Source of the DNA: Dacryopinax spathularia
Lineage: Eukaryota > Basidiomycota > Dacrymycetes > Dacrymycetales > Dacrymycetaceae
Assembly: GCA_037974965.1 (NCBI GenBank)
Contig: JBBPFI010000001.1
Span: 124,001 to 188,000, forward strand
Reading direction: 5' to 3'
Length of the DNA stretch: 64,000 nt
In this document: positions 34,807 through 48,976 of the stretch, piece after piece
Layout of the letters: every line of letters begins with the position of its first letter
How positions within the stretch are numbered: the first letter of the stretch is position 1
The notes under the pieces: generated by a model
Databases searched by the model: none
What the model was told of the DNA's origin: nothing
Seen by the model: the letters and a program-made list of their open reading frames with translations, nothing else
Program-made: the position numbers and the translations under genes

Positions 34807-37160
34807 ATGTCTGCTCTTCTCCTACCCACCTCTGACAAGCTTTTGCCTGTCCTTGCTGTCTCTCTGTCCACCATACTCGTTTTCGGCCTGGTTCGATCCT
34901 ATCTCAATCGGTCTAAGACTACTGAGCTCGCTGGTCCCAAGCGCCCTAACTGGCTCTGGGGCTACACTCGGCACCTCATTGAGGGCCACAGTGGTGATTA
35001 CTTCGAAGAATGGCAGAAGAAATACGGCGACATATACAAGATCCCCTCCGCAGGCGGAGTACGCTGCATCACTCCCTCAACCTCCCTTGGTGCTGTATCT
35101 AATGGTGGTCGAAGGGAGAACGCATTGTGCTGATGGATGCGCGGGCTATCTCTTATGTGCTCACAACCCAGCCACTGAACTTCATACGCCATACGGGTGA
35201 CCGCGAGTCCGTCAAGCGCCTGGTACGCAACTACGTTGACCAAAAACGGCGATGACATGAATCATTGTTCTAGGTGGGCGATGGCATATTGTCTCAAGAA
35301 GGTGCGCATACATCCCATCATTCTGGGTATCCCACTCAACTTTTCTGACAGGCCAGCATCATCGGAGGTATGCTTGGGTTTGCTCACTTCACGCAGTGAG
35401 CTTATCTGATCTTTTCAAAGGCACAGGAAGACGATGTCTCCCGGCTTCACCCTTGCTTCCATTCGGTACTTCACTTCCATATTTCTGGATGCGACGAACA
35501 AGGTTGAACTTGCTGCTTCGGAGGGGCTCGAGATATGCTGACAGAGGCCAAGGTGAAAGATCTGTGGTTGGCCAAAATAGCCGCCCAGGGCGCAGACAAG
35601 GCCGTCATCCTCAACGTTGAACACTGGTACGTCCCCGATCCGTCGCGTGCTCTACCCTGCTGAGTCCTATTAGGATGAATGCTATCTCATTTGTCAGATG
35701 ATTTCGTCACCCCTTGTGCAAGTTCTCAAACTTTCTTCTAGGAATCTATCGGAGAGGCTGGCTTTGCCTACGATTTCGACTGCCTGAAGGGAGAACTACC
35801 CCCCATCGCACGGTATTTCACCGCCCTTGGCGATACGAGCAAGAACCTCGCAAGCATGATCGTGTTAGCCCTCGTGCAGGCGTTTCCGATAATCGCCTCC
35901 CTCCCGCTGCCCCGCAACAAAATGTTTGATGGGCTCAGGTCGGAAGCGGGAGGCGTGGCTACGGAGGTGCTTAAGAACAAGAAGGCTCTTGAGGAGATGT
36001 CGGAAGATCGCAGGGCGCTCGTCGCTTCCATTAGTGGGCCGTTCGTTCTGTCGACTGGAAAGCATGGCTAAGCAGGCTGCAGTCAAAGCTGAGAACCGGA
36101 ATCTCTCCGTTGAGGAGGTCGTTGCCACGGTAAACTGGTTTTGCTGTGACGATGATGGCCAAGGCTGAGACTCTACAGATCAATACACTCGTACTTGCCG
36201 GATTCGAAACTACCTCCTGTGAGTGTTTCCCAATCAGCTAAGAGCATCTGACCGATCGAGGTACAGCCACCATGAGTGTTAGTCCTTGCTCTGGATCCTA
36301 CGAGAGAGGCTGATTTAGACTGCGCACAGTGGTGCCTGCATGAACTTTCTCTCCATCCTGAGGTCCAGAACAAACTCCGCGAGGAATTGCGCAAGTACCC
36401 GGAGCCGACTCACGAAGAATTGGCCAAGATGCCGTACCTCAATGCGGTGACCCAAGAGGCTCTCCGTACCCATCCGGTCGTGCCGGAGAATCACCGTCGG
36501 GTGCGTTGGTTCCAAATGCTTATCTGGGTTTGGTACTGATGACCTCCTTTGTATAGACGGTTAATGACGCCTCGATCCCTCTTCAACACCCCATCACGCT
36601 GCCATCCGGCAAAGTGGTGGACCACATCGAGGTTCCAGCAGGCAGCGGCTTGATCATCCCTATCGAAGCGATGAACCGGTCGAGCGTGATCTGGGGCCCC
36701 GACAGCCACGAGTTCAAGCCCGAACGGTGGCTGGAGGGGGAACTCCCAAAGAGGGCTGCCGAGATTCAGGGGTTCCACCATCTGCTGACGTTTATCGACG
36801 GGCCGAAGTACGTCTACGTCATTGATTTTCAAGCCCGCTGGTGCTGATCTGCCGATAGAAACTGTATTGGACGAAACTTTGGTAAGCTGGAATTTGAAAT
36901 AGTGCCCATTCTACTTTTGCTGACCTTGTTATCAAGCTGTTGCCGAGTTCAAGGTACGCTGCTAAACTGACCCAGTGTACATTGAATTGGCGATTGATCT
37001 CAATGGACAGGCCGTAATGTCGGTCCTCATCCGGAATTTCTCCTTCGCCCCACTTACGGACGGTTCCGACATCGAGCGTATCCGCACTGTGGTGCAGCGT
37101 GGGAGGAACAAGGGCAAGGATGGGCTCTACCTACGTGTGAGCAAAGTGGATGCCCAGTAG
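34807..37160 (+). CDS. Cytochrome P450 monooxygenase, tandem copy 1
   Basis: Haem-thiolate monooxygenase of about 525 residues, anchored in the ER by one N-terminal helix (LLPVLAVSLSTILVFGLV). The spliced protein reads TTELAGPKRPNWLWGYTRHL, GERIVLMDARAISYVLT, then HHRRHRKTMSPGFTLASIRY (C-helix; recovered only by splicing a 16-nt micro-exon near 35352-35367). The I-helix is INTLVLAGFETTS (oxygen-binding AGFETT), the K-helix ETLR-type motif is EALRTHPVVPENHR (ExxR), then FKPERW, and the haem loop is GPKNCIGRNFAVAEFK with the Cys ligand. About 14 introns are needed and all keep frame, so the gene looks intact. It shares exon-intron positions with the copy at 39134. The haem loop has Lys where the paralog has the more usual Arg (GPKN versus GPRN). 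CYP family not assigned. Confidence 0.9.
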
Positions 37161-39133: not shown

Positions 39134-41472
39134 ATGTCCACCATATTGCTGTCCCTGCCTGACAAACTCCCCTCGTTGCTCGCGCTTTCAGTTTGTGCCA
39201 GCCTCGTCCTTGGGCTGCTACGTGCGCTCTTCCGCCGCTCGAAGACGACAGAACTCGCGGGTCCCAAACGTCCCAGCTGGCTTTGGGGCTACAGCCGCGC
39301 CCTTGTCTCTGGGACCAGTGGTGACTATTTCGAAGAATGGCAGAAGCAGTATGGTGATGTTTATCGGATCCCCACGGCCGGAGGAGTACGTCCTCCACGT
39401 CTCCGCTGTACGATGTGCTGAAACTCGTACAGGGCGAACGTACTGTACTCATGGATGCCCGCGCGATTTCATACGTTCTGAACACGAACGCCTACAATTT
39501 CGTTCGCCATCGCGGACCTAGGGAGACGATCAAGCGGATGGTGCGTTGGCGCTTGATAATGGTGGAGCCGCGTGACTGATTGGCCCAGGTGGGTGGAGGC
39601 ATTCTTTCGGTCGAAGGTCAGTAGTTCCAGGCACCAGACTGGTTCTTTCTGATTCGCGTTATCAGGGGAACATCATCGAAGGTACTGGATCCTCCTGTAG
39701 TTCATTGCACCGCCGTCTCTGATGCTATACAGGCACCGCAAGTCGATGTCGCCTGGATTCACGATCGCCTCCATTCGGTACTTCACCAGCATTTTCTTGG
39801 ATGCCACAAACAAGGTCAGCAGAAGCGATGCCTGCAGGGCTCTCAAGTTGATTAACTGGTCACAGGTCAAAGACAGATGGCTGGCCAAGATGGCAGCTGA
39901 AGGCAAAGACAAGGATCTGATCATAAATGCTGAGCATTGGTACGTTTCATGCTAATTCGCAAAGGATGTCGGGCTGATTCGGATAGGATGAACGCGATCT
40001 CCTTCGTACGTGCTGCGCCCCACCCCGTTCGCACGTAATCTCATATCCGTTGATAGGAATCCATTGGCGAAGCAGGGTTCGCCCACGACTTCAACTGCAT
40101 TTCCGAAGAACTGCCCCTAATCGGAAAGCTCTTCACCTCGCTCGGGAAGACAAGCAAGAGCTTGGGAACCATGGTTGTTCTCGCCCTGAACCAGGCATTC
40201 CCAATCATCGCGAAGCTTCCATTGTCCCGCAACAAGATTTTTGATCAACTGAATTCGGCAATGCGGAGTGTGGCGACCGACGTGCTGAAGGACCGGAAAG
40301 CGCTTACAGAGGTCTCCGACGACCGGCGCTCCCTCGTGGCTTCGATCAGTATGTAACTTCGGTGCTTGTTCGTCATCAAAACTCACATGTCCATAGTCAA
40401 AGCCGAGAACCGCAACCTTTCGGTGGAAGAAGTTATTGCTGAGGTTCGTACTCCGCTGGATTGCGGCTGGTCGCTCGCTGACCTAGCCACTGCCTCCAAG
40501 ATCAATACTCTCCTGCTGGCTGGCTTTGAAACGACCTCCAGTATGCAACATGTTATTGATCTCTACTGCTCTTTACTGACCATATTACAGCGACAATGGC
40601 TGTCCGTATCTTCGCCTGTCGTCGCAATGACCGTTCTAATGTGTCTATAGTGGTGCCTGCATGAGCTTTCGGTCAACCCTCGTGTCCAAGAGAAGCTCCG
40701 GGAAGAACTCCGACAGTTCCCCGAGCCGACTTATGAAGACCTCGCTAACAAGATGCCATACCTGAACGCTGTCATCCAGGAGTCGCTTCGCACCCATCCC
40801 GCCGTGCCGGAGAATCACCGACTTGTACGTCCTATTGCTCCTCGTATGCTCGCTCGATCAACGTTTCGTATAGACCGTGAACGACGCCTCGGTCCCGCTG
40901 CAATACCCTATCACTCTGCCGACCGGTAAGGTAGTCGACCATATCGAACTCCCAGCCGGCACTGGCGTCATCATCCCCATCGAAGCGATGAATCGCTCGA
41001 GCGTGTTCTGGGGACCAGACAGCCACGAGTTCAAGCCTGAGCGTTGGCTTGATGAGGAGCTGCCGAAGAAGGTCACGGAGATCCAGGGATTCCACCATTT
41101 GCTGACATTCATTGATGGACCGAGGTACGCGGACACTCATACTAGACATTATCCACGGATGCTGAACTTGATGCAGGAACTGCATTGGAAGGAACTTTGG
41201 TAAGCGCCGACCTGACCCATCCTGTGAATCACGCTGACCGTCTCCTGCAGCCGTTGCTGAATTCAAGGTATGCTCGCGTTACATCGTTAAGTCAACTTGC
41301 ATGCTAATATTCTACCCACAAGGCCGCCATCTCCGTGCTCGTTCGCAACTTCTCGTTCGCTCCTCTCACGGATGGATCCGATGTCGAACGCGTTCGGACC
41401 CTCGTCCAGCGCGCCAGGAACGCCGGTAAAGAAGGCCTGTTCCTGCGTGTCAGCAAAGTCGATGCTGAGTGA
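39134..41472 (+). CDS. Cytochrome P450 monooxygenase, tandem copy 2
   Basis: Close paralog of the P450 at 34807, about 527 residues after splicing. N-terminal anchor LLALSVCASLVLGLLRAL, then TTELAGPKRPSWLWGYSRAL, GERTVLMDARAISYVLN, VEGEHHRRHRKSMSPGFTI (across a 16-nt micro-exon near 39664-39679), NAEHWMNAISF, ESIGEAGFAHDFNC, INTLLLAGFETTSTTMA (I-helix), ESLRTHPAVPENHRL (ExxR), FKPERW and GPRNCIGRNFAVAEFK (haem Cys). It ends RVSKVDAE-stop. Introns sit at the same codons as in copy 1, so the pair arose by tandem duplication that kept the exon structure. No P450 reductase is in the window. Substrate and CYP family are unknown. Confidence 0.92.
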
Positions 41473-41725: not shown

Positions 41726-41896
41726 TCAAAGCTCATACACCTTATCTCTGGGGCTGTAACACTCATCTCCGACGCAAAGACGCCTCTCAGCCTGTGCCTC
41801 ACGTGCTGCGACCGACGCAAGGAAGGGAGGCGGCAAAGCGCTGCTTGAACTTGCCAGAAGGACGAGTAGCGCACAAGAAAGTAGTTTGAAATGCAT
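41726..41896 (-). CDS. Small secreted Cys peptide, family member A
   Basis: A 56-residue predicted secreted peptide. Signal peptide MHFKLLSCALLVLLASSSSA (20 aa), then LPPPFLASVAAREAQAERR and the core LCVGDECYSPRDK. The two cysteines are in C-x4-C spacing and are preceded directly by a dibasic Arg-Arg, a possible Kex2-type site. A likely intron in the 5' leader (41924-41966, 43 nt, donor GTACGT) ends 27 nt before the ATG. It shares the A-R-E-A segment before the core with member B, 520 bp away on the same strand. Too short for routine gene callers. Function unknown. Confidence 0.6.
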   Translation of the reverse strand: MHFKLLSCALLVLLASSSSALPPPFLASVAAREAQAERRLCVGDECYSPRDKVYEL

Positions 41897-42417
41897 TATA
41901 GCACCGTTGTTCGTGCTGGCAAACTGTCAGAGCTCAGACTACAGGAGCACTGAAGGACACACGTACTTGGCGGTGTTGGTGGAGGAGTAGGCAGCTATCA
42001 TCCTCGCACTCCCTGTCTTATGGGCTTGTGTGAGTGTCATCATTGAGGGAGCAGTGGAGTACTGCGTCTGTACGAAACCGATCGATCTGGTCGAATAGGG
42101 GGGTGCTATTGCCTTTTGCAGAAGTGAATCATCCGCAGTTCGACAACTTGAGTTCGCACGCGGAGCACAGATTGACCTGTTCGGAAGTGGATCTGCTTCC
42201 CGTATTTCCTTTTCGATACCAGCGTTGTACGAGGACATCACATCGAAGGATTGCCCTCGAGAACATACGCGATCATATATTTCTTCCGACATCAATACAC
42301 TATAGCGCTTCACGTCTTCATGACGAGATTCCTGCTTAGAATGCCCTTGTTAGGTACAAATATAGCCATCGCAGAACTGGACAAATGCTTACCATTTCCC
42401 GTCACATCTCCGGGAGA

Positions 42418-42600
42418 TCACAGCGTCTCCGTCTCGGCCCGAGTGCAAATGCCGTGCCAGCAGACGCACACCTTCTCCACACACTCGCTTTCCGGGATCG
42501 CCTCACGGGCATCAATCGCGGCAGCCACGGCGGCCGGCATGGCACTCACGCGAAGAGCGAAGAGCGCGGCGATGAGAAGAGAGGCGAACTTGACCTGCAT
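42418..42600 (-). CDS. Small secreted Cys peptide, family member B
   Basis: A 60-residue predicted secreted peptide. Signal peptide MQVKFASLLIAALFALRVSA (20 aa), pro-segment MPAAVAAAIDAREAIPES, core ECVEKVCVCWHGIC (C-x4-C-x-C-x4-C), then TRAETETL. An intron in the 5' leader at 42634-42682 (49 nt, donor GTACGT, branch CTGAC, acceptor CACAG) ends 33 nt before the ATG. The start is chosen because it opens the signal peptide; upstream in-frame codons belong to the leader. The four-cysteine pattern is shared with member F (C-x4-C-x-C) and, with a shorter first gap, members C and D. No clear TATA box was seen. Confidence 0.62.
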   Translation of the reverse strand: MQVKFASLLIAALFALRVSAMPAAVAAAIDAREAIPESECVEKVCVCWHGICTRAETETL

Positions 42601-42683
42601 GCTGGCCTGGCTACGTGCGAATTGGGGAGAAATCTGTGATAGGGTCAGTCGAGGAGAGGGGTCACCAGCGCACTGTACGTACA

Positions 42684-43464
42684 AGAGCCGACTTGAGACG
42701 TAAACGCAGACTGAGCTCGTACTTGCCCATTTCCCGACGCGTTAAGTACGATTCCCGTTCTGTCCTGCCGCGTATCGTCCGTTCCCACTCCATCGGCCAA
42801 GCACCTCCGAATGACAAGCCGCACACCAGATTGTCGGAAGCGAGTCGCACGAACTATAGTAACCACTTCCAGCTCCACATGTATCGCTCCTCTGGCACCA
42901 TGTGCGGCTCAAGCTCCTGAGATAGTTTCGCACATAGTGTTTGCCAGGGAAAGGAGGATAACCACGCAGAGTGGCAGGACGGTCGTACCTCGCCGCTCAT
43001 CAGAATCGAGCTTCGGATAACGAGATCAATACTTACAATTCCTTCATCCATACCGAAATCGTGGGGATCGAGACGGTTTCGCATGGTTGAATGTAGATGC
43101 CCATTATCGCTTAGATGCCGAGGCCGGCAGACTCGAGGACGACGTGTCTCGTGACACAAGCATCCATGCGTCGCGAAAGCCGCATTAGCTCGACCTTCCC
43201 AACGAGTCTCGGAATGTCAAGTACAATGTGAGCACCATCCTTGTCTTTTGTCGGGGAGGACAATGGCCGACAATAACGAGCCATGATGTGTTGTGCACAC
43301 TGTGACGTACGAGGCACTGATAGAGCCAAAAGAAGCGCCGGCAATAAGCGCCCATCGGATGCAACAAGAAGAAATTTGCTTCCGCCCGGCACCGCGGAAA
43401 ACCTTTTGTGTTGTTGCACTTTGTTCCTTTTCTACCGCATCGCCGTACATACGCTCGCGTTAGG
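42684..43464. other. Spacer between peptide B and RSA3
   Basis: About 780 bp between the minus-strand peptide B and the plus-strand RSA3 gene. It must hold both promoters. Minus-strand frames at 43120-43410 (GAHIVLDIPRLVGKVELM) have coding-like composition but end without splice support or recognisable motifs, so no gene is called. Confidence 0.4.
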
Positions 43465-44144
43465 ATGGCTAAAGCTGATTCTGCAGCCAAGAAAAAGCGG
43501 ACAAGGCGAAGAAAGAGGAGAGAGGTTTCGGAATCTTCCTCTTCGGACGATTCTGGTACGGAATCGGAAGGCGCTGTGAAGATTACGGTCGAGCGAACGG
43601 CACCAGTGACGACAGCATCTACAGCACCAAAAGTGGCAGAAGAATCATCGGTCGATACAGACTCAGACGAGAGCGAGTCCTCTGATGAGGATGAACCTAC
43701 AACAAATACGAAACCGGCCCATGCAGAAGCGGCAGATGTAGAAATGGCTCCTGCCGAGCCGGTAGAAGCGCCTCAGCCCCGCAGACGACTGCCTTCCCGT
43801 TCACCTTCGCCTCCTTCTCCTACTCTACCGCCTTTCCTGCCAAAAGAAACGGATCCAAGAGAAGAGAAAGAAAAGCTGTTGAGAGAACGATTTCGCAAAT
43901 ATTGGATGGCGAGCCTCGCGGATGGTTTCGCGGATGATCTGGACGAGATTCGCAAGGTCTGCTGTCTATTTCTTCGCGTCGCTACAATACTCATATTACG
44001 TAGGAACCGAGCATGACCAAGTCTCGATTGGAAATGCTTATCGACTCCCTGGCTTCTGGTGCCGACGTGTTCAGCTCCTCGGTGGACGAGAACAGTCGAA
44101 AACGTACGATGGAGGAGATGGAACTGGTCCTTGGTGAACGCTAG
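43465..44144 (+). CDS. RSA3: Ribosome assembly protein 3 (Rsa3)
   Basis: Nucleolar factor of early 60S pre-ribosome assembly. The N-terminal two thirds is disordered: a basic start (MAKADSAAKKKRTRRRKRR, a likely nucleolar signal), Ser/Asp/Glu runs, then a Pro/Ser segment. The C-terminal Rsa3 domain reads RFRKYWMASLADGFADDLDE IRK, then after one intron EPSMTKSRLEMLIDSLASGA DVFSS, matching the family's 'F..FGDDLD.LR.EPDF..S.L..LI..L..G...F' pattern. The intron (43956-44003, acceptor CGTAG) is phase 0. It sits in the middle of the secreted-peptide cluster, with minus-strand members on its left and plus-strand members on its right. Confidence 0.85.
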
Positions 44145-44382
44145 CATTTCTTATTCTCCTTTCCTGTAAGATTAACCTATCTTTGCATTGTAATACTAAT
44201 CTGGCTCATACTGCAAGCCGGGTTGCGTATGTGCGTGAGGTTGACGGTCAGGAGGTAGTCCTCGAACAGGTACATACAACAAAATCTGCTATGCTGTCCT
44301 CGACAGCTGTCAGTCTGTTCAGCACTGTAATCGTAAGACTTGGTTCCCACATCAGAGGCTTGGTGGCTCGATCCCACCGACT

Positions 44383-44389
44383 ATGATAA
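44383..44389 (+). promoter_or_regulatory. GATA-factor-type site TGATAAG
   Basis: TGATAAG lies 181 bp before the peptide C ATG, with a second GATAAC 6 bp further on. AGATAAG is in the equivalent place in the peptide D promoter (45392-45398). GATA factors in fungi mediate nitrogen, iron or light responses; which one would act here is not known. Confidence 0.35.
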
Positions 44390-44430
44390 GCGAAGATAAC
44401 CGCGGCCTATTTTTCACTGCAACTGCGGCA

Positions 44431-44437
44431 TATAAAG
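44431..44437 (+). promoter_or_regulatory. TATA box of peptide C
   Basis: TATAAAG, 133 bp before the ATG at 44564 and about 59 bp before the leader intron. Members D, E and F have a TATAAA at similar distance (145, 131 and 127 bp). Confidence 0.65.
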
Positions 44438-44563
44438 CCTGCAGGATTGGAGCGTCTCAAGCTCAGCAGAGAGTAAAGGCATACAGACGGTAAGCATCGT
44501 TCGACTCTCTAATGGCTTTGCTCACTCGAGCTCAAGCCAGCTATTGAACCTACAAGCGGCAAC

Positions 44564-44728
44564 ATGAACGTCCGTCTCTTCGTCGCCTTTGTCACTATCA
44601 CCCTCCTCGGGTACGCCGTGGCCAACCCCATTCCGATCCCAGTGGCCGAAGCCCAACCGGAGGAAGAATGCAACCCTTGCTTTTGCGTGTATCTGGGGGA
44701 CGAGGGTAACCCGCCTTGCGTAGCATGA
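44564..44728 (+). CDS. Small secreted Cys peptide, family member C
   Basis: A 54-residue predicted secreted peptide. Signal peptide MNVRLFVAFVTITLLGYAVA, pro-segment NPIPIPVAEAQPEE, core ECNPCFCVYLGDEGNPPC (C-x2-C-x-C-x10-C), ending VA-stop. The leader intron is 44490-44556 (67 nt, donor GTAAGC) and ends 7 nt before the ATG. Closest relative is member D 1 kb downstream: same MNV start, same NP-x-P-x-P pro-segment, same C-x2-C-x-C, and a recognisably duplicated promoter. The C-terminal Cys-Val-Ala is not a CaaX box, and the signal peptide argues against a lipopeptide pheromone. Confidence 0.68.
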   Translation: MNVRLFVAFVTITLLGYAVANPIPIPVAEAQPEEECNPCFCVYLGDEGNPPCVA

Positions 44729-45339
44729 TAGTCTCGGAGCGATGTGACTTGAAGGGTGGGCTGGAAGAAGGGTGGTGCTTTGTAGTCAGTATACTGTCTG
44801 ACCCCATATCAGATGTATTCGGTTGCTGTTATATTTGTGTGTACGGTAATGGATGTGATCTGGGTGGTCATCGTTCCGTCGACCCTGGCTGAGTCCAGAG
44901 CGGCGGAAAGCCCAAAAGTACCTAGAAGACAGAACACGTATGTGGAGTGATATTGTGATAGTAGTTCCTACTACATGTTTCCTGGTAGGTACATGAACAT
45001 CTTCCCCATCGAGACGCTCATGTGCCTCAGTCCATGAGTCGAAAGCACATCTCCGACGCGCTCTTAGGTTGATTTGCTCCAGCTCTTCGAATGATGCAAG
45101 ATTGGAGCTCGTGCTCGGGGAACTACAGCATTTTCACTGGCATTGCCTCTTCTATTAGGATTGATGTGTACATCATGCTACCCGTCTGCATCAGACGGAA
45201 AGCCTGAGGCATACGTATGGACGCGGCGTTGACCATGGAGCCTCCCCTAAAATAAGCCGGCTGCGGCGCCTCGGCAAGCTCTGTCCTCGCGATGCTCTTG
45301 CTAGCCGATGTTATCGCTCCAGGTCTATGCTTGCATGAC
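44729..45339. other. Spacer between peptides C and D
   Basis: About 600 bp. AT-richer 3' flank of peptide C to about 45000, then a stretch with no supported exon. I see nothing else. Confidence 0.4.
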
Positions 45340-45494
45340 GTGGCTCCCATCAGAGGTTCGGTGGTTCAGTCGCATCGAGCACGCTTGTCCAAGATAAGTG
45401 TGTCCTGTTCTGGAGCTCAGCTGCAGCCTATAAAGCCCACGAGACCGAGCCGTTGCAAGCTCAAAGCGCGCGCGACACACTACTGACGGTAAGC
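45340..45494 (+). repeat. Duplicated promoter block, copy 2 (upstream of peptide D)
   Basis: Matches 44338-44496: GTGGCTCCCATCAGAGG, CGGTGG, AGATAAG, TATAAAGCCC, GCAAGCTCAAAG and the leader donor ACGGTAAGC, in the same order but clearly diverged. This shows that peptides C and D arose by duplication including their promoters. Confidence 0.6.
45429..45435 (+). promoter_or_regulatory. TATA box of peptide D
   Basis: TATAAAG, 145 bp before the ATG at 45574 and 60 bp before the leader intron donor, matching member C. Confidence 0.65.
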
Positions 45495-45573
45495 ACGGTT
45501 TACCCCCCGCTATTATTGCTGCTGTAACTTGGAACTTAAAATCAGGGATCGAACCGACTACAACAGCAATAAC

Positions 45574-45720
45574 ATGAACGTCCATTTCTTCATCAGCTTC
45601 CTCGCTATCGCCCTCTTCGGCTCCGCCATGGCCAATCCCGTCCCGGTCCCAGAGGCCGAGGCCGAAGCTTGGAACTGCGGAGCTTGCGGATGCGCTCCTC
45701 CCCCGGGCTGCATACCATGA
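45574..45720 (+). CDS. Small secreted Cys peptide, family member D
   Basis: A 48-residue predicted secreted peptide. Signal peptide MNVHFFISFLAIALFGSAMA, pro-segment NPVPVPEAEAEA, core WNCGACGCAPPPGC (C-x2-C-x-C-x5-C), ending IP-stop. The Glu-Ala repeat directly before the core resembles the spacer that the dipeptidyl aminopeptidase Ste13 trims from yeast alpha-factor; whether such trimming happens here is inference. Leader intron 45489-45545 (57 nt, donor GTAAGC) ends 28 nt before the ATG. The predicted mature end is very small (about 16 residues if fully trimmed) and rich in Cys, Gly and Pro. Confidence 0.68.
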   Translation: MNVHFFISFLAIALFGSAMANPVPVPEAEAEAWNCGACGCAPPPGCIP

Positions 45721-46601
45721 TCGTGTCAGAACGATGTAGGCAACGCGTTAGAAGAAGGATGCTACTGTTCAAACAGCGACGCCTTATTTCACATAGCGAA
45801 GGAATGTGACTGTGATTTTGTCTTGCTTCGAGTGTCCTGACGGCCGTGGTTTGCACTGAACTTGCGTATCGAAAGAGAGGGAGAAGGGGAGAAGTTCGTG
45901 TGAGTGAGAGCCTTCTCAAACAGTGCAAAAATACCGCAAGTCCGATTTGCCGATAAACGTTCGACACGAATTATGGATTAGTCTGGTGGAAGCTGTTGCC
46001 AACCTCATCGCGCTGCTAATCCAGCCTTCGACTTCCAGGGGAGCGGGGAAAGTATGAACCAGGCTGTGCTCCGGCAAGATCGTCATGGACTGAAGATCCT
46101 CCCACAATAGAAGGTCCGCGGGAGTGAACAAGAATAATGTACTGCATCCAATCATCGGTCCTACATGAAAGCTGTGGTCATGGGCACTGCCACATCAACC
46201 GGACCTCGTGATATCAAGAAAGGTTGCTCTGAGAGGAAAACTAGGCTTGGCCAGATTTCACGTCGGTGCTGCAAATTTCATGCAGAGCGAGTGACAAAGG
46301 CATCGATAGATTTGGATCCCAGATCTTGTTCCTTGGGCGATCAATGTCTTGCACGCCAGGATGCGACCACGTCGTCGGCAAAGGGGAAATCCGTCGCAGT
46401 GCAGGCCTCGAAGATCTGCTGATGGGCGCTGCAGCGCTGATGCTTGCTGTCACTATCTCCGATGGGCCGCTGGGCCGCCGGCCTTTCCTTGGTCGCCTTG
46501 ACAGTCCGACGTTTCGCATAGCCCAGGTGATAGAGCTAAGGCCTCAACCAGATCTACATGGCTTCACAATTGATATCGCCGAAACGCAGGGCCTTGCGAG
46601 C
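45721..46601. other. Spacer between peptides D and E
   Basis: About 880 bp with no supported gene. A 208-codon plus frame begins at 46266 but overlaps the peptide E promoter and leader in another frame and has no family motif, so it is not called. Confidence 0.4.
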
Positions 46602-46608
46602 TATAAAG
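46602..46608 (+). promoter_or_regulatory. TATA box of peptide E
   Basis: TATAAAG, 131 bp before the ATG at 46733, in the same place as in members C, D and F. Confidence 0.6.
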
Positions 46609-46732
46609 GTAGGCACAGTTGGCCCTTCGCTTGTAAGTCGTGTCACCGGCCAGCCAAACCACGTATGTCTCGGTCGCTCCTCCTCTGGCTCGCAGCTGAC
46701 GGTGACTATATAGCGCCCACGACATCAGAACG

Positions 46733-46873
46733 ATGCAGTTCGGCTCCGTTCTTCTCGTTATTTTTGCTCTGCTGGCGCCAGCCATCGCTTCGCCGTTGGG
46801 AGACTTGCAAGGCGGGAATTATCCACGTGGAGAATGCGAGGGAGCGTATTGTGCGGATAGAACTTCCTCGTAG
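46733..46873 (+). CDS. Small secreted Cys peptide, family member E
   Basis: A 46-residue predicted secreted peptide, below most gene-calling limits. Signal peptide MQFGSVLLVIFALLAPAIA (19 aa), then SPLGDLQGGNYPRGECEGAYCADRTSS. The two cysteines are spaced C-x4-C, as in member A and the first half of members B and F. Leader intron about 46633-46713 (donor GTAAGT, acceptor ATATAG), ending 19 nt before the ATG. The pro-segment lacks the Glu-Ala motif. It could be a shortened member that has lost the second half of the core, or a distinct subtype with member A. Confidence 0.55.
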   Translation: MQFGSVLLVIFALLAPAIASPLGDLQGGNYPRGECEGAYCADRTSS

Positions 46874-48343
46874 ACTGGGTGCCTCTTGTTGACTGGCTGC
46901 GCTGGACGGGGAAGCTCACAAGCTCGCCACAGTTCGGGCACACATCGACGTCGCTACTGGAGCGATGGAGTTCAATGCGCGGATTGCATACCACAATGTA
47001 AACTGATGTTGCCTCCACTACATCGCGTGGTACGGCCGCTCTAGGCCTTTTGTCGGAAGAAGGACGTAGTGAGTATCTTGCGGGACCATCAGCCTTTACG
47101 TAGTCGAGTACAGCCCGAGAGAGCAGCGCATTGCGGTTTTGGGCTAGGGGTCCACAGACCGCAACGACGTATTGCATACTCATCGCCACGAATCGTGGGT
47201 GACAATACGATGGCAGGAGGGCGGACATGCTGTACGGGACAGTTCCCTGCCACATTGACCCGGACAATCCCTCCTCGTTTTCATCAGAATACAAGAGAGG
47301 CGATTTGAAGCCGGAAGGATTTAGCGGCTTGTGACGCGCGGCGCAGTAAGCCTGTAATCAAATGCGGACGGAAGGAAGGTTTAGCATCCAATGATTCGCT
47401 GATGACTGGACAGCATACGACTCCTGCCGCCCAACGGAAGTACCGGCAGAACATCTAGTCGATGTCCGTTCGCGAGAATCCAGTCACTGTGGCTCATTCA
47501 GAGGGAGGAGACAGCGCAGTAGACTCCGTCGAGGACGATAATGGGAAAAGGCCCATGCGGAGACTTGACCAAGAACCTTCGCTAACCCTCAGAGTGGTGC
47601 TCTGCTTGCCATTGCCAGGGACGCGTCTGCTTGGAAGCGGAGTATGTTGCGTCGTTCAAAGCCGAACTCAGTGCCACACGGGGCAACTCGAGCTGTTCCA
47701 CCCCTATCCAAATATGGCGTTTGCTCCCAAAATCGTATGGTGCGCTCGGAGTAGTCGGTGATCGTAGTCCGCTTCTTCGCTTGTGTCCAGGTTCCGGCCA
47801 CATCCAAAGCCCAGAAGAACACTGACGATTCTCAAACGTCCTTTCCTTGTCATATTCCTCCATCATGAGATTGGCAATGTCTCGGCGAAACAAATCGGGA
47901 TAGAAACGATACTTGGAGGGTCGTGATCTTGCCCTCTTGCAGCAGGCGGGAACGATGCAAGACTTCTGGATCCGCTATGCCGGCGAATTACGATCCCCTG
48001 CCTGCCACGCAGTGGAACAGCCGTGCAATCGCATTGATAGACGTGACAGCACGTGCCGTCGACGCGCGACTCCCACAGTGGGGTTGGAGCCGCCGTCCAC
48101 ATGTTGCCCAGTCATAAGAGCGTATTGCCGAATAACGGCGGACTGATGACTGGTCGTCCGCACGCTGTACAGGTAGGCGCGGACCACACGGCTGCCAAGA
48201 CGCACGAATGCCGGATTACGGATTGGGTGGTTGCTGAGTCGATGTGGCGTGGTGAGCTGATGCTGTCCGAGGTGGTTTCGTGTAGCGGAGAGGTGCGGGG
48301 AGGAGAGGTGAAGACAACCGAGAATAATGCTGAGGCTGAAGCG
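46874..48343. other. 1.5-kb spacer between peptides E and F
   Basis: No gene supported. Frames at 47461-47761 (+) and 46758-47294 (-) lack splice signals, motifs and signal peptides. One short stretch (EAEYVASF near 47640) recalls a phrase common in retroelement RNase H domains, but nothing around it supports that. Confidence 0.4.
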
Positions 48344-48350
48344 TATAAAA
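48344..48350 (+). promoter_or_regulatory. TATA box of peptide F
   Basis: TATAAAA, 127 bp before the ATG at 48471 and 63 bp before the leader intron. Confidence 0.65.
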
Positions 48351-48470
48351 CACGGCCGTATTGAGCTACAGTCTCTTCAGTAGTCTGCCTATTGTCACTT
48401 GCCCAGGTGAGCGGGCTGAGCCTGCGACGGTGCGGGATGTCCCTAACGTGTCGCAGAAATCTCGCTCGCC

Positions 48471-48620
48471 ATGAACTTCAAGGTCTTCCTCATCGCTGTT
48501 GTTGCGACGTTTGTCGGATCGACTATGGCCTTCCCGGCTGCTGACCCCGAGCTCGTCGTTCGCGAAGAGGAATGCCTGGTGGGTATGTGTGGGTGCGGCG
48601 CGGCGCCTCCGTGCCAGTAG
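48471..48620 (+). CDS. Small secreted Cys peptide, family member F
   Basis: A 49-residue predicted secreted peptide. Signal peptide MNFKVFLIAVVATFVGSTMA, pro-segment FPAADPELVVREE, core ECLVGMCGCGAAPPC (C-x4-C-x-C-x5-C), ending Gln-stop. Leader intron 48407-48456 (50 nt, donor GTGAGC, branch CCTAAC, acceptor CGCAG) ends 14 nt before the ATG. It combines the C-x4-C first half of member B with the Gly-Cys-Gly/Ala-Pro-Pro second half of member D, so it links the two subgroups. A possible 3' UTR intron lies at about 48643-48705. Confidence 0.67.
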   Translation: MNFKVFLIAVVATFVGSTMAFPAADPELVVREEECLVGMCGCGAAPPCQ

Positions 48621-48976
48621 TTTGACATGTCGAACTCTTGTTGGGTGAGTCGTTCGGGCATCATGTGACATGGCGATGACTGCTAACTTTTCTTGTCGAT
48701 CCAGAAGGAAGATGACCAACCGGAGGAGATGACGGGGAATATGGAGAGCCGGAATCTGTGAATTAAATGTTGAAGATGTTGTAAAGGTGTGAAGAATGAT
48801 TAAGATGTCGTGCACGTTACGTCACTGCAAAGAAAACGACCACCCTCGATTTTTGCTCTTGGCGCTACTCCTTCAGCTTGCGATGGCTGACCAAGGGCGG
48901 TTGCGCGTCGGTTGACTATTGCTCCGAGATCCCGTACACAGCACAATGAGCCAAAGCTCTCCGCGACGAACGAATC
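48621..48976. other. Spacer with converging 3' ends of peptide F and GRC3
   Basis: About 355 bp between a plus-strand stop and a minus-strand stop. Probably terminators and 3' UTRs of both genes. AT-rich near 48760-48800. No gene. Confidence 0.5.

Follow-up and report, generated by a model that had tools for sequence, protein, structure and literature searches.

The DNA considered here is a 64-kb window (positions 124001 to 188000 of contig C1) of a 29.2-Mb, 24-contig fungal assembly, and the subject is a cluster of six tiny open reading frames in it, called A to F (Table 1). The cluster is probably genuine: a set of related, very small genes for prepropeptides that arose by local duplication, the products of which would be trimmed along a ladder of dipeptides to leave extracellular, cystine-containing cores. 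A first-pass annotation of this DNA had reported six frames of 46 to 60 codons, each with a signal peptide (SP) and a short Cys core, as one diversifying family of secreted peptides. All six were found where it had placed them, with the strands and lengths that it implied and the cores that it gave, and the observation is confirmed, with the qualification that the members are not equally good. From codon use, the C and D copies, and the TATA box and intron elements, B, C, D and F are judged to form a family with good support, to which E likely belongs and A possibly does. Newly noticed are an X-Pro/X-Ala ladder, an RR in A, and common elements in the untranslated regions (UTRs).

Are six such frames more than chance would give? 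The background was a 264-kb sample of C1, namely the window and 100 kb on either side, in which 947 frames of 40 to 75 aa begin with ATG. Leaders that resemble a signal peptide are found in 35 of them, and nine of the 35 also carry C-x(2,4)-C (together, the SP+Cys rule): six are A to F, one of the other three runs into a larger secreted protein, and the last two were judged spurious by reading. In the 7.5-kb region of the cluster, six passing frames were observed; 400 dinucleotide shuffles gave 0.06 on average and never more than 2. The SP rule is a simple one of our own, composed after the six frames had been seen, and the background and the shuffles serve as its control. Codon use was scored for synonymous choice against 3857 codons from 13 long open reading frames of the window, some of them without a Pfam match; the score is reached by 4.2% (B), 5.8% (C), 0.8% (D) and 3.9% (F) of the 947 frames.

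All six frames pass the SP rule, which is a prediction. The rule itself returns the first permissible cleavage site (15 to 20); on reading, the likely cleavage position is residue 20 (19 in E), an Ala in all six, and in all six a Pro stands two residues past the site. Taken with the composition of the leaders, these features uphold, as a prediction, the secretion that had been proposed for every member. Each precursor has one core, and repeated cores are absent. The C-x(2,4)-C spacing of the first-pass annotation is narrower than written: two residues in C and D, four in A, B, E and F, and never three. In B, C, D and F the core extends to C-x(2,4)-C-x-C-x(n)-C. By reading, A has an RR just ahead of its core, and KR, RR and KK are absent from B, C, D, E and F. 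The C-termini are CVA (C), CIP (D), CQ (F), TETL (B), RTSS/DRTSS (E) and VYEL (A); none of the six has a CaaX box, and a basidiomycete a-type mating pheromone was rejected. Short, predicted to be secreted and with at least two Cys, the frames fall into the broad class of fungal small secreted Cys-rich proteins.

How are the six related? C and D form a tandem pair, spaced by about 1 kb, and have kept TATAAAGCC, a splice donor, the ATG context, the leader and all four Cys codons, and a tblastn search of the host's own genome pairs them at E 1.9e-7. Judged from these comparisons, their common origin is firm. The common origin that had been claimed for the whole set is fainter in the rest: D and F are weakly similar by sequence (E 0.09 in the own-genome search), the link of B to F is supported by a common 3′UTR intron and that of E by its TATA box plus a 5′UTR intron-like stretch, while for A there is the leader plus one intron-like stretch. 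The C and D pair also bears on the claim of diversifying selection. In the leader, nonsynonymous (dN) and synonymous (dS) divergence are both 0.26 over 30 codons; in the core, dN is 0.71 and dS 0.43 over 14 alignable codons of this one pair, with identical Cys codons and a core length that differs by insertions and deletions. This is suggestive of diversifying selection and, as a single pair, cannot prove it. Conotoxin-like evolution of a hypervariable Cys-peptide family would show a core dN/dS above 1 beside a conserved leader and conserved Cys codons; the values have the form that such a family should give, and a single pair with few sites does not distinguish this from relaxed constraint.

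The surroundings of the frames have elements in common as well. A TATA-like hexamer lies within 260 nt upstream of 45 of 945 frames, C to F among these. A, B, C, E and F each have an intron-like stretch, about 50 nt long, that stops 4 to 33 nt short of the ATG; they are five of the 53 frames, out of 945, with such a stretch. When both elements are required in the right order, three of the 945 remain, and they are C, E and F. Downstream, a strict rule for a 3′UTR intron (start at +20 to +32) singles out B and F from 946 frames, and a loose one, passed by about 1% of the 946, is passed by B, C and F.

A block upstream of C (44350–44400), common to D (45345–45385), resembles a tRNA T-arm by eye: GGTGG CTCGATC CCACC in C. 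An RNA-gene reading was rejected; Rfam gave one match, far below the gathering score, and neither Rfam nor ARAGORN found a tRNA.

The ladder follows the predicted SP in C and D. Past this point the sequence is NP-IP-IP-VA-EA-QP-EEEC in C and NP-VP-VP-EA-EA-EA-WNC in D; each has six X-Pro/X-Ala dipeptides in register, with the signature that is trimmed by Ste13 in alpha-pheromone precursors. A cut behind Ala-18 instead, two residues upstream, would leave the register intact in both and add VA or MA. Between the copies, the first residue of the dipeptide differs at four of the six places and the second at one, from Pro to Ala, both of which are acceptable to a Ste13-type enzyme at that position. 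When the same residues were permuted 20000 times, within segment limits that we picked, a run of six dipeptides arose in 0.045% of the trials for C and 0.03% for D; the corresponding shares are 1.2% for the three dipeptides of F, 3.2% for the four of B, and about 14–15% for the one of E and the two of A. Searched as a DNA pattern through the whole genome, the ladder gave 17 matches against 6 in a reversed control. All 17 were read, and C and D alone have an SP before the ladder and a Cys core behind it.

What would become of such a precursor? We infer that the genes are transcribed and spliced, and that their products are trimmed, closed by disulfides and released. Each short mRNA, its 5′ leader spliced, would encode a precursor destined for the secretory pathway, and signal peptidase would cut behind Ala-20 (Ala-19 in E) to expose an X-Pro N-terminus. 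In C and D, a dipeptidyl aminopeptidase of the Ste13/DPP IV type would strip the six dipeptides stepwise and halt at EE (C) or WN (D). For A, B and F, partial trimming or trimming by kexin may be envisaged, because B has four dipeptides and F three, and A has a Kex2-type RR before its core. The cores of C, D and F would be 16 to 23 residues long, hold two disulfides and be released outside the cell; the ladder-trimmed, two-disulfide products (minus 4 H) would be WNCGACGCAPPPGCIP and EEECNPCFCVYLGDEGNPPCVA. As read from the sequences, mature C, D and F would be acidic or neutral. For this reason our guess at their role would be peptides for signalling or interaction outside the cell, and not a cationic antibiotic that acts on membranes; defence comes in second place. 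A broader proposal, which we put forward tentatively and with some doubt, is that basidiomycetes have a route to secreted cystine peptides that needs no kexin: signal peptidase would expose a Ste13-type ladder in precursors of one core each, from a family that expands locally while its cores vary between fixed Cys codons. If this were true, duplication alone could yield a new peptide signal or weapon.

Which processing enzymes does the genome offer? It has one match to the kexin P-domain (on C4) and 11 exon matches to S9 peptidases. Four S9 loci were opened: L050 (C12) has a DPPIV_N match together with an S9 domain, the frame of which has matches among solved S9 and DPP IV chains; L052 is prolyl oligopeptidase-like; L049 is nearest to solved prolyl oligopeptidase and aminopeptidases; and L051 received no closer assignment. 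Because of the S9 and DPPIV_N results at these four loci, a Ste13 orthologue is rated as possible. On C5 (near 1717912), positions 1054–1569 of locus L041 encode a 171-aa precursor with an SP, KR-EAEA repeats and GLYGPSWAGGY-like cores; it contains a further match to the ladder pattern, and its last repeat has two Cys (DECLYGPCWTGGY). By its sequence, this is a canonical alpha-pheromone-like Kex2-processed repeat protein (KEP) of the Kex2/Ste13 type in a dacrymycete.

Several results weigh against the interpretation of the cluster as a ladder-trimmed family. The ladder is complete in C and D only, A and E have almost none of it, and the two complete ladders count as one observation because C and D are paralogues. 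The rules used to scan for TATA boxes and introns were, like the SP rule, composed after the sequences had been seen; the consensus scan found no TATA box upstream of A and B, D fails the 5′ intron rule with a branch site off the consensus used, and none of A, D and E passes the 3′UTR intron rule, even in its loose form. The codon scores of A and E are ordinary, being reached by 48% and 77% of the 947 frames. As for the enzyme, a whole-genome search for DPPIV_N gave no match at E <= 1e-5, the DPPIV_N score of L050 passes narrowly (24.5 against a cut-off of 22 bits), and the propeller frame of this locus has no match among solved structures at E <= 0.001. Relatives are also wanting: an alignment of the six, compared with 5.8 billion proteins, gave 129 candidates, none at E <= 10; an alignment of C and D gave one candidate, again not at E <= 10; and in protein searches of the own genome A, B and E each match only themselves.

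How far do these searches reach? The protein database includes proteins of Calocera and Dacryopinax. The search requires shared five-residue words, of which at most 100 are used, and genes this short are often unannotated, so that it argues weakly for an absence of homologues. Divergent members elsewhere in the genome would be missed, since A, B and E find nothing beyond themselves. Own-genome searches with each of the six returned solely cluster members, apart from one match of D on C12 (E 2.06), antisense to a 726-aa frame, which was dropped as chance. A DNA pattern for TGY cores gave 23 matches, D itself among them, against 17 in a reversed control, and most of the matches are therefore taken as chance. 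No frame of the six scored above a cut-off in Pfam or NCBIfam; a sub-threshold Moricin match for F (Pfam, E 0.4) and a PilM match (PDB search) are far from significance, and no PDB match of any frame is better than E 0.75.

Could the frames be something else altogether? That some or all of them are chance frames and not genes seems highly improbable; the idea is plausible mainly for A and less for E, the two that codon use does not back, and the shuffle and background controls, the conservation between C and D, and the common promoter and intron layout speak against it. Or does each of them merely open, as a first exon, a longer secreted protein that is assembled by splicing? Three short SP frames 82–85 kb from the cluster do extend into longer secreted proteins. 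At the cluster, however, the similarity of C and D fades about 20 nt past the stops, short patches excepted, no Pfam match was found downstream of any of A to F on its own strand, and the downstream intron of B and F begins 25–26 nt past the stop; we regard this explanation as very unlikely. A second peptide cluster, considered at C1:80.9–83.3 kb, was rejected on the same ground, namely that its three short SP frames run on into larger proteins. The place (L011:6300–9400, minus strand; about C1:80.3–83.4 kb) holds tandem paralogues of a secreted protein, two clear and one more distant, in which an intron comes soon after the SP and the first exons mimic tiny peptide genes; the two clear ones have a conserved second exon.

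The remaining alternatives accept the genes and differ on the product. Precursors of ribosomally synthesized and post-translationally modified peptides (RiPPs), with cores tailored by neighbouring P450s as in dikaritin-type clusters, are improbable: two P450 genes do lie just upstream and UstYa-type matches are present in the genome, but the five UstYa (PF11807) exon matches lie on C6 and C2 and none on C1, the cores are not repeated, C and D have no Kex2 dibasic sites, and from 33.0 to 48.5 kb, the forward frames around each peptide excepted, no tailoring enzyme was matched besides the P450s. P450 genes are common in fungi. A tailoring RiPP cluster at the locus is not supported. On C6, four of the UstYa exon matches fall within 17.6 kb (C6:1456385–1473948); this basidiomycete may thus have a RiPP cluster of the dikaritin type there. 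Secreted peptides for defence against bacteria or fungi, under diversifying selection and of the general copsin or cylindracin kind though smaller, are unlikely but worth keeping in mind. The frames are small, Cys-containing, probably secreted and in tandem, the core varies more than the leader between C and D, and mushrooms are reported to have Cys-rich secreted antimicrobial proteins; on the other side stand the acidic or neutral character that mature C, D and F are predicted, by reading, to have, the limit of four Cys, the lack of a Pfam match above the cut-off or of any NCBIfam match, and PDB matches no better than E 0.75. Finally, C-x-C cores might chelate copper or zinc outside the cell, which would make these secreted metal-binding peptides. 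B, C, D and F have the C-x-C, with acidic residues alongside in B, C and F by reading; with four Cys only, and no metallothionein match among the Pfam results for the six frames, this is very doubtful. Four Cys in the oxidising secretory pathway usually form disulfides.

The neighbourhood of the prepropeptide family was also read. Upstream of the cluster are two cytochrome P450 genes (about 36330–36500 and 40630–41080, plus strand), and an Rsa3-like gene lies inside it (Table 1). A Pfam search of 10 of the 68 long open reading frames placed seven above the cut-off (TCF25, AAA ATPase, aspartyl protease, UvdE, GRC3/NOL9, PMT and TCP-1 chaperonin) and one below it (WD40-like), and left two without a match; the minus-strand frames across 42601–48470 have no Pfam match. 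The GRC3/NOL9 gene adjoins the cluster, and its best database matches are Calocera viscosa (67%), C. cornea (66%) and Dacryopinax (60%), after which identity falls to 46% or less among the 120 matches listed. For this reason the host is placed in the dacrymycetes, the sister group of the agaricomycetes; the label "agaricomycete" in the first-pass annotation is wrong, the nearest relatives of the host being Calocera and Dacryopinax.

Table 1. Predicted genes and candidate sequence elements of the cluster (positions in the window)
Feature	Position	Strand	Description	Basis
Predicted peptide gene A	41726..41896	-	56 aa; SP; RR one residue ahead of core CVGDEC; weakest member	frame; SP+Cys rule
Predicted peptide gene B	42418..42600	-	60 aa; core C-x4-C-x-C-x4-C	frame; SP+Cys rule; codon use
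Predicted peptide gene C	44564..44728	+	54 aa; SP; ladder NP-IP-IP-VA-EA-QP; core C-x2-C-x-C-x10-C	frame; SP+Cys rule; codon use
Predicted peptide gene D	45574..45720	+	48 aa; SP; ladder NP-VP-VP-EA-EA-EA; core C-x2-C-x-C-x5-C	frame; SP+Cys rule; tblastn; codon use
Predicted peptide gene E	46733..46873	+	46 aa; core C-x4-C	frame; SP+Cys rule
Predicted peptide gene F	48471..48620	+	49 aa; core C-x4-C-x-C-x5-C	frame; SP+Cys rule; codon use
TATAAA of C	44431..44436	+	133 nt before ATG	
TATAAA of D	45429..45434	+	145 nt before ATG	
TATAAA of E	46602..46607	+	131 nt before ATG	
TATAAAA of F	48344..48350	+	127 nt before ATG	
Intron-like stretch, 5′ leader of A	41916..41966	-	51 nt (GTACGT...CTGAC...CAG)	consensus scan
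Intron-like stretch, 5′ leader of B	42634..42682	-	49 nt	consensus scan
Candidate 5′UTR intron of C	44490..44540	+	51 nt; donor ACG/GTAAGCA (slash, exon end) kept in D	consensus scan; alignment
Candidate 5′UTR intron of D	45489..45545	+	57 nt; donor homologous to that of C	alignment; limits by reading
Intron-like stretch before E	46663..46713	+	51 nt (or 66 nt, to 46728)	consensus scan
Candidate 5′UTR intron of F	48407..48456	+	50 nt (GTGAGC...CTAAC...CAG)	consensus scan
Candidate 3′UTR intron of B	42332..42392	-	61 nt (GTAAGC...CTAAC...CAG); begins 26 nt past stop	
Candidate 3′UTR intron of F	48645..48704	+	60 nt (GTGAGT...CTAAC...CAG); begins 25 nt past stop	
Rsa3-like ribosome-assembly gene	43465..44144	+	between B and C; two exons, with limits by reading; outside the family	two Pfam part-matches, 23 and 21 bits (curated cut-off 27)

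Why would such a family matter? Surveys of Kex2-processed fungal peptides, as presented in two reports, searched for repeats with dibasic sites (PMC6339444, PMC9769878). Single-core precursors with the ladder directly behind the SP escape searches of that design. Such secreted peptides may also be under-counted because gene prediction easily misses genes this small. If the proposed trimming is true, "SP, X-Pro/X-Ala run, Cys core" would become a simple scan rule for other fungi, and the role of Ste13 would become testable in basidiomycetes, where it is not required for the mating pheromones.

Among known systems, the cluster resembles fungal small secreted proteins in that its members are small, predicted to be secreted, Cys-containing and clustered, with no homologue found; at 46–60 aa before processing, however, they look to be below the usual size of that class. 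With dikaritin RiPP precursors they have in common a secretory precursor and nearby P450 genes, whereas here the cores are unrepeated and the contig has no UstYa match. Basidiomycete KEPs with STE13 motifs, and peptides derived from them, have been described (PMC9769878; PMC6339444). They are alike in having an SP and X-Ala/X-Pro runs before a short secreted core, and L041 is a true KEP of this genome; C and D differ from them by a single Cys core, the lack of a Kex2 site and a ladder directly behind the SP. Some ascomycete alpha pheromones contain two Cys (PMC6339444). Their precursors are similar in the Ste13-type dipeptide spacer and, in some, the Cys, whereas C and D are unrepeated, have no Kex2 cut ahead of the ladder and have four Cys. 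A last parallel comes from outside the fungi: the propeptide of melittin, an animal venom peptide without Cys, is trimmed stepwise by dipeptidyl peptidase IV. No relationship is implied, and the likeness lies in the layout: an X-Pro/X-Ala ladder behind the SP, followed by a single core.

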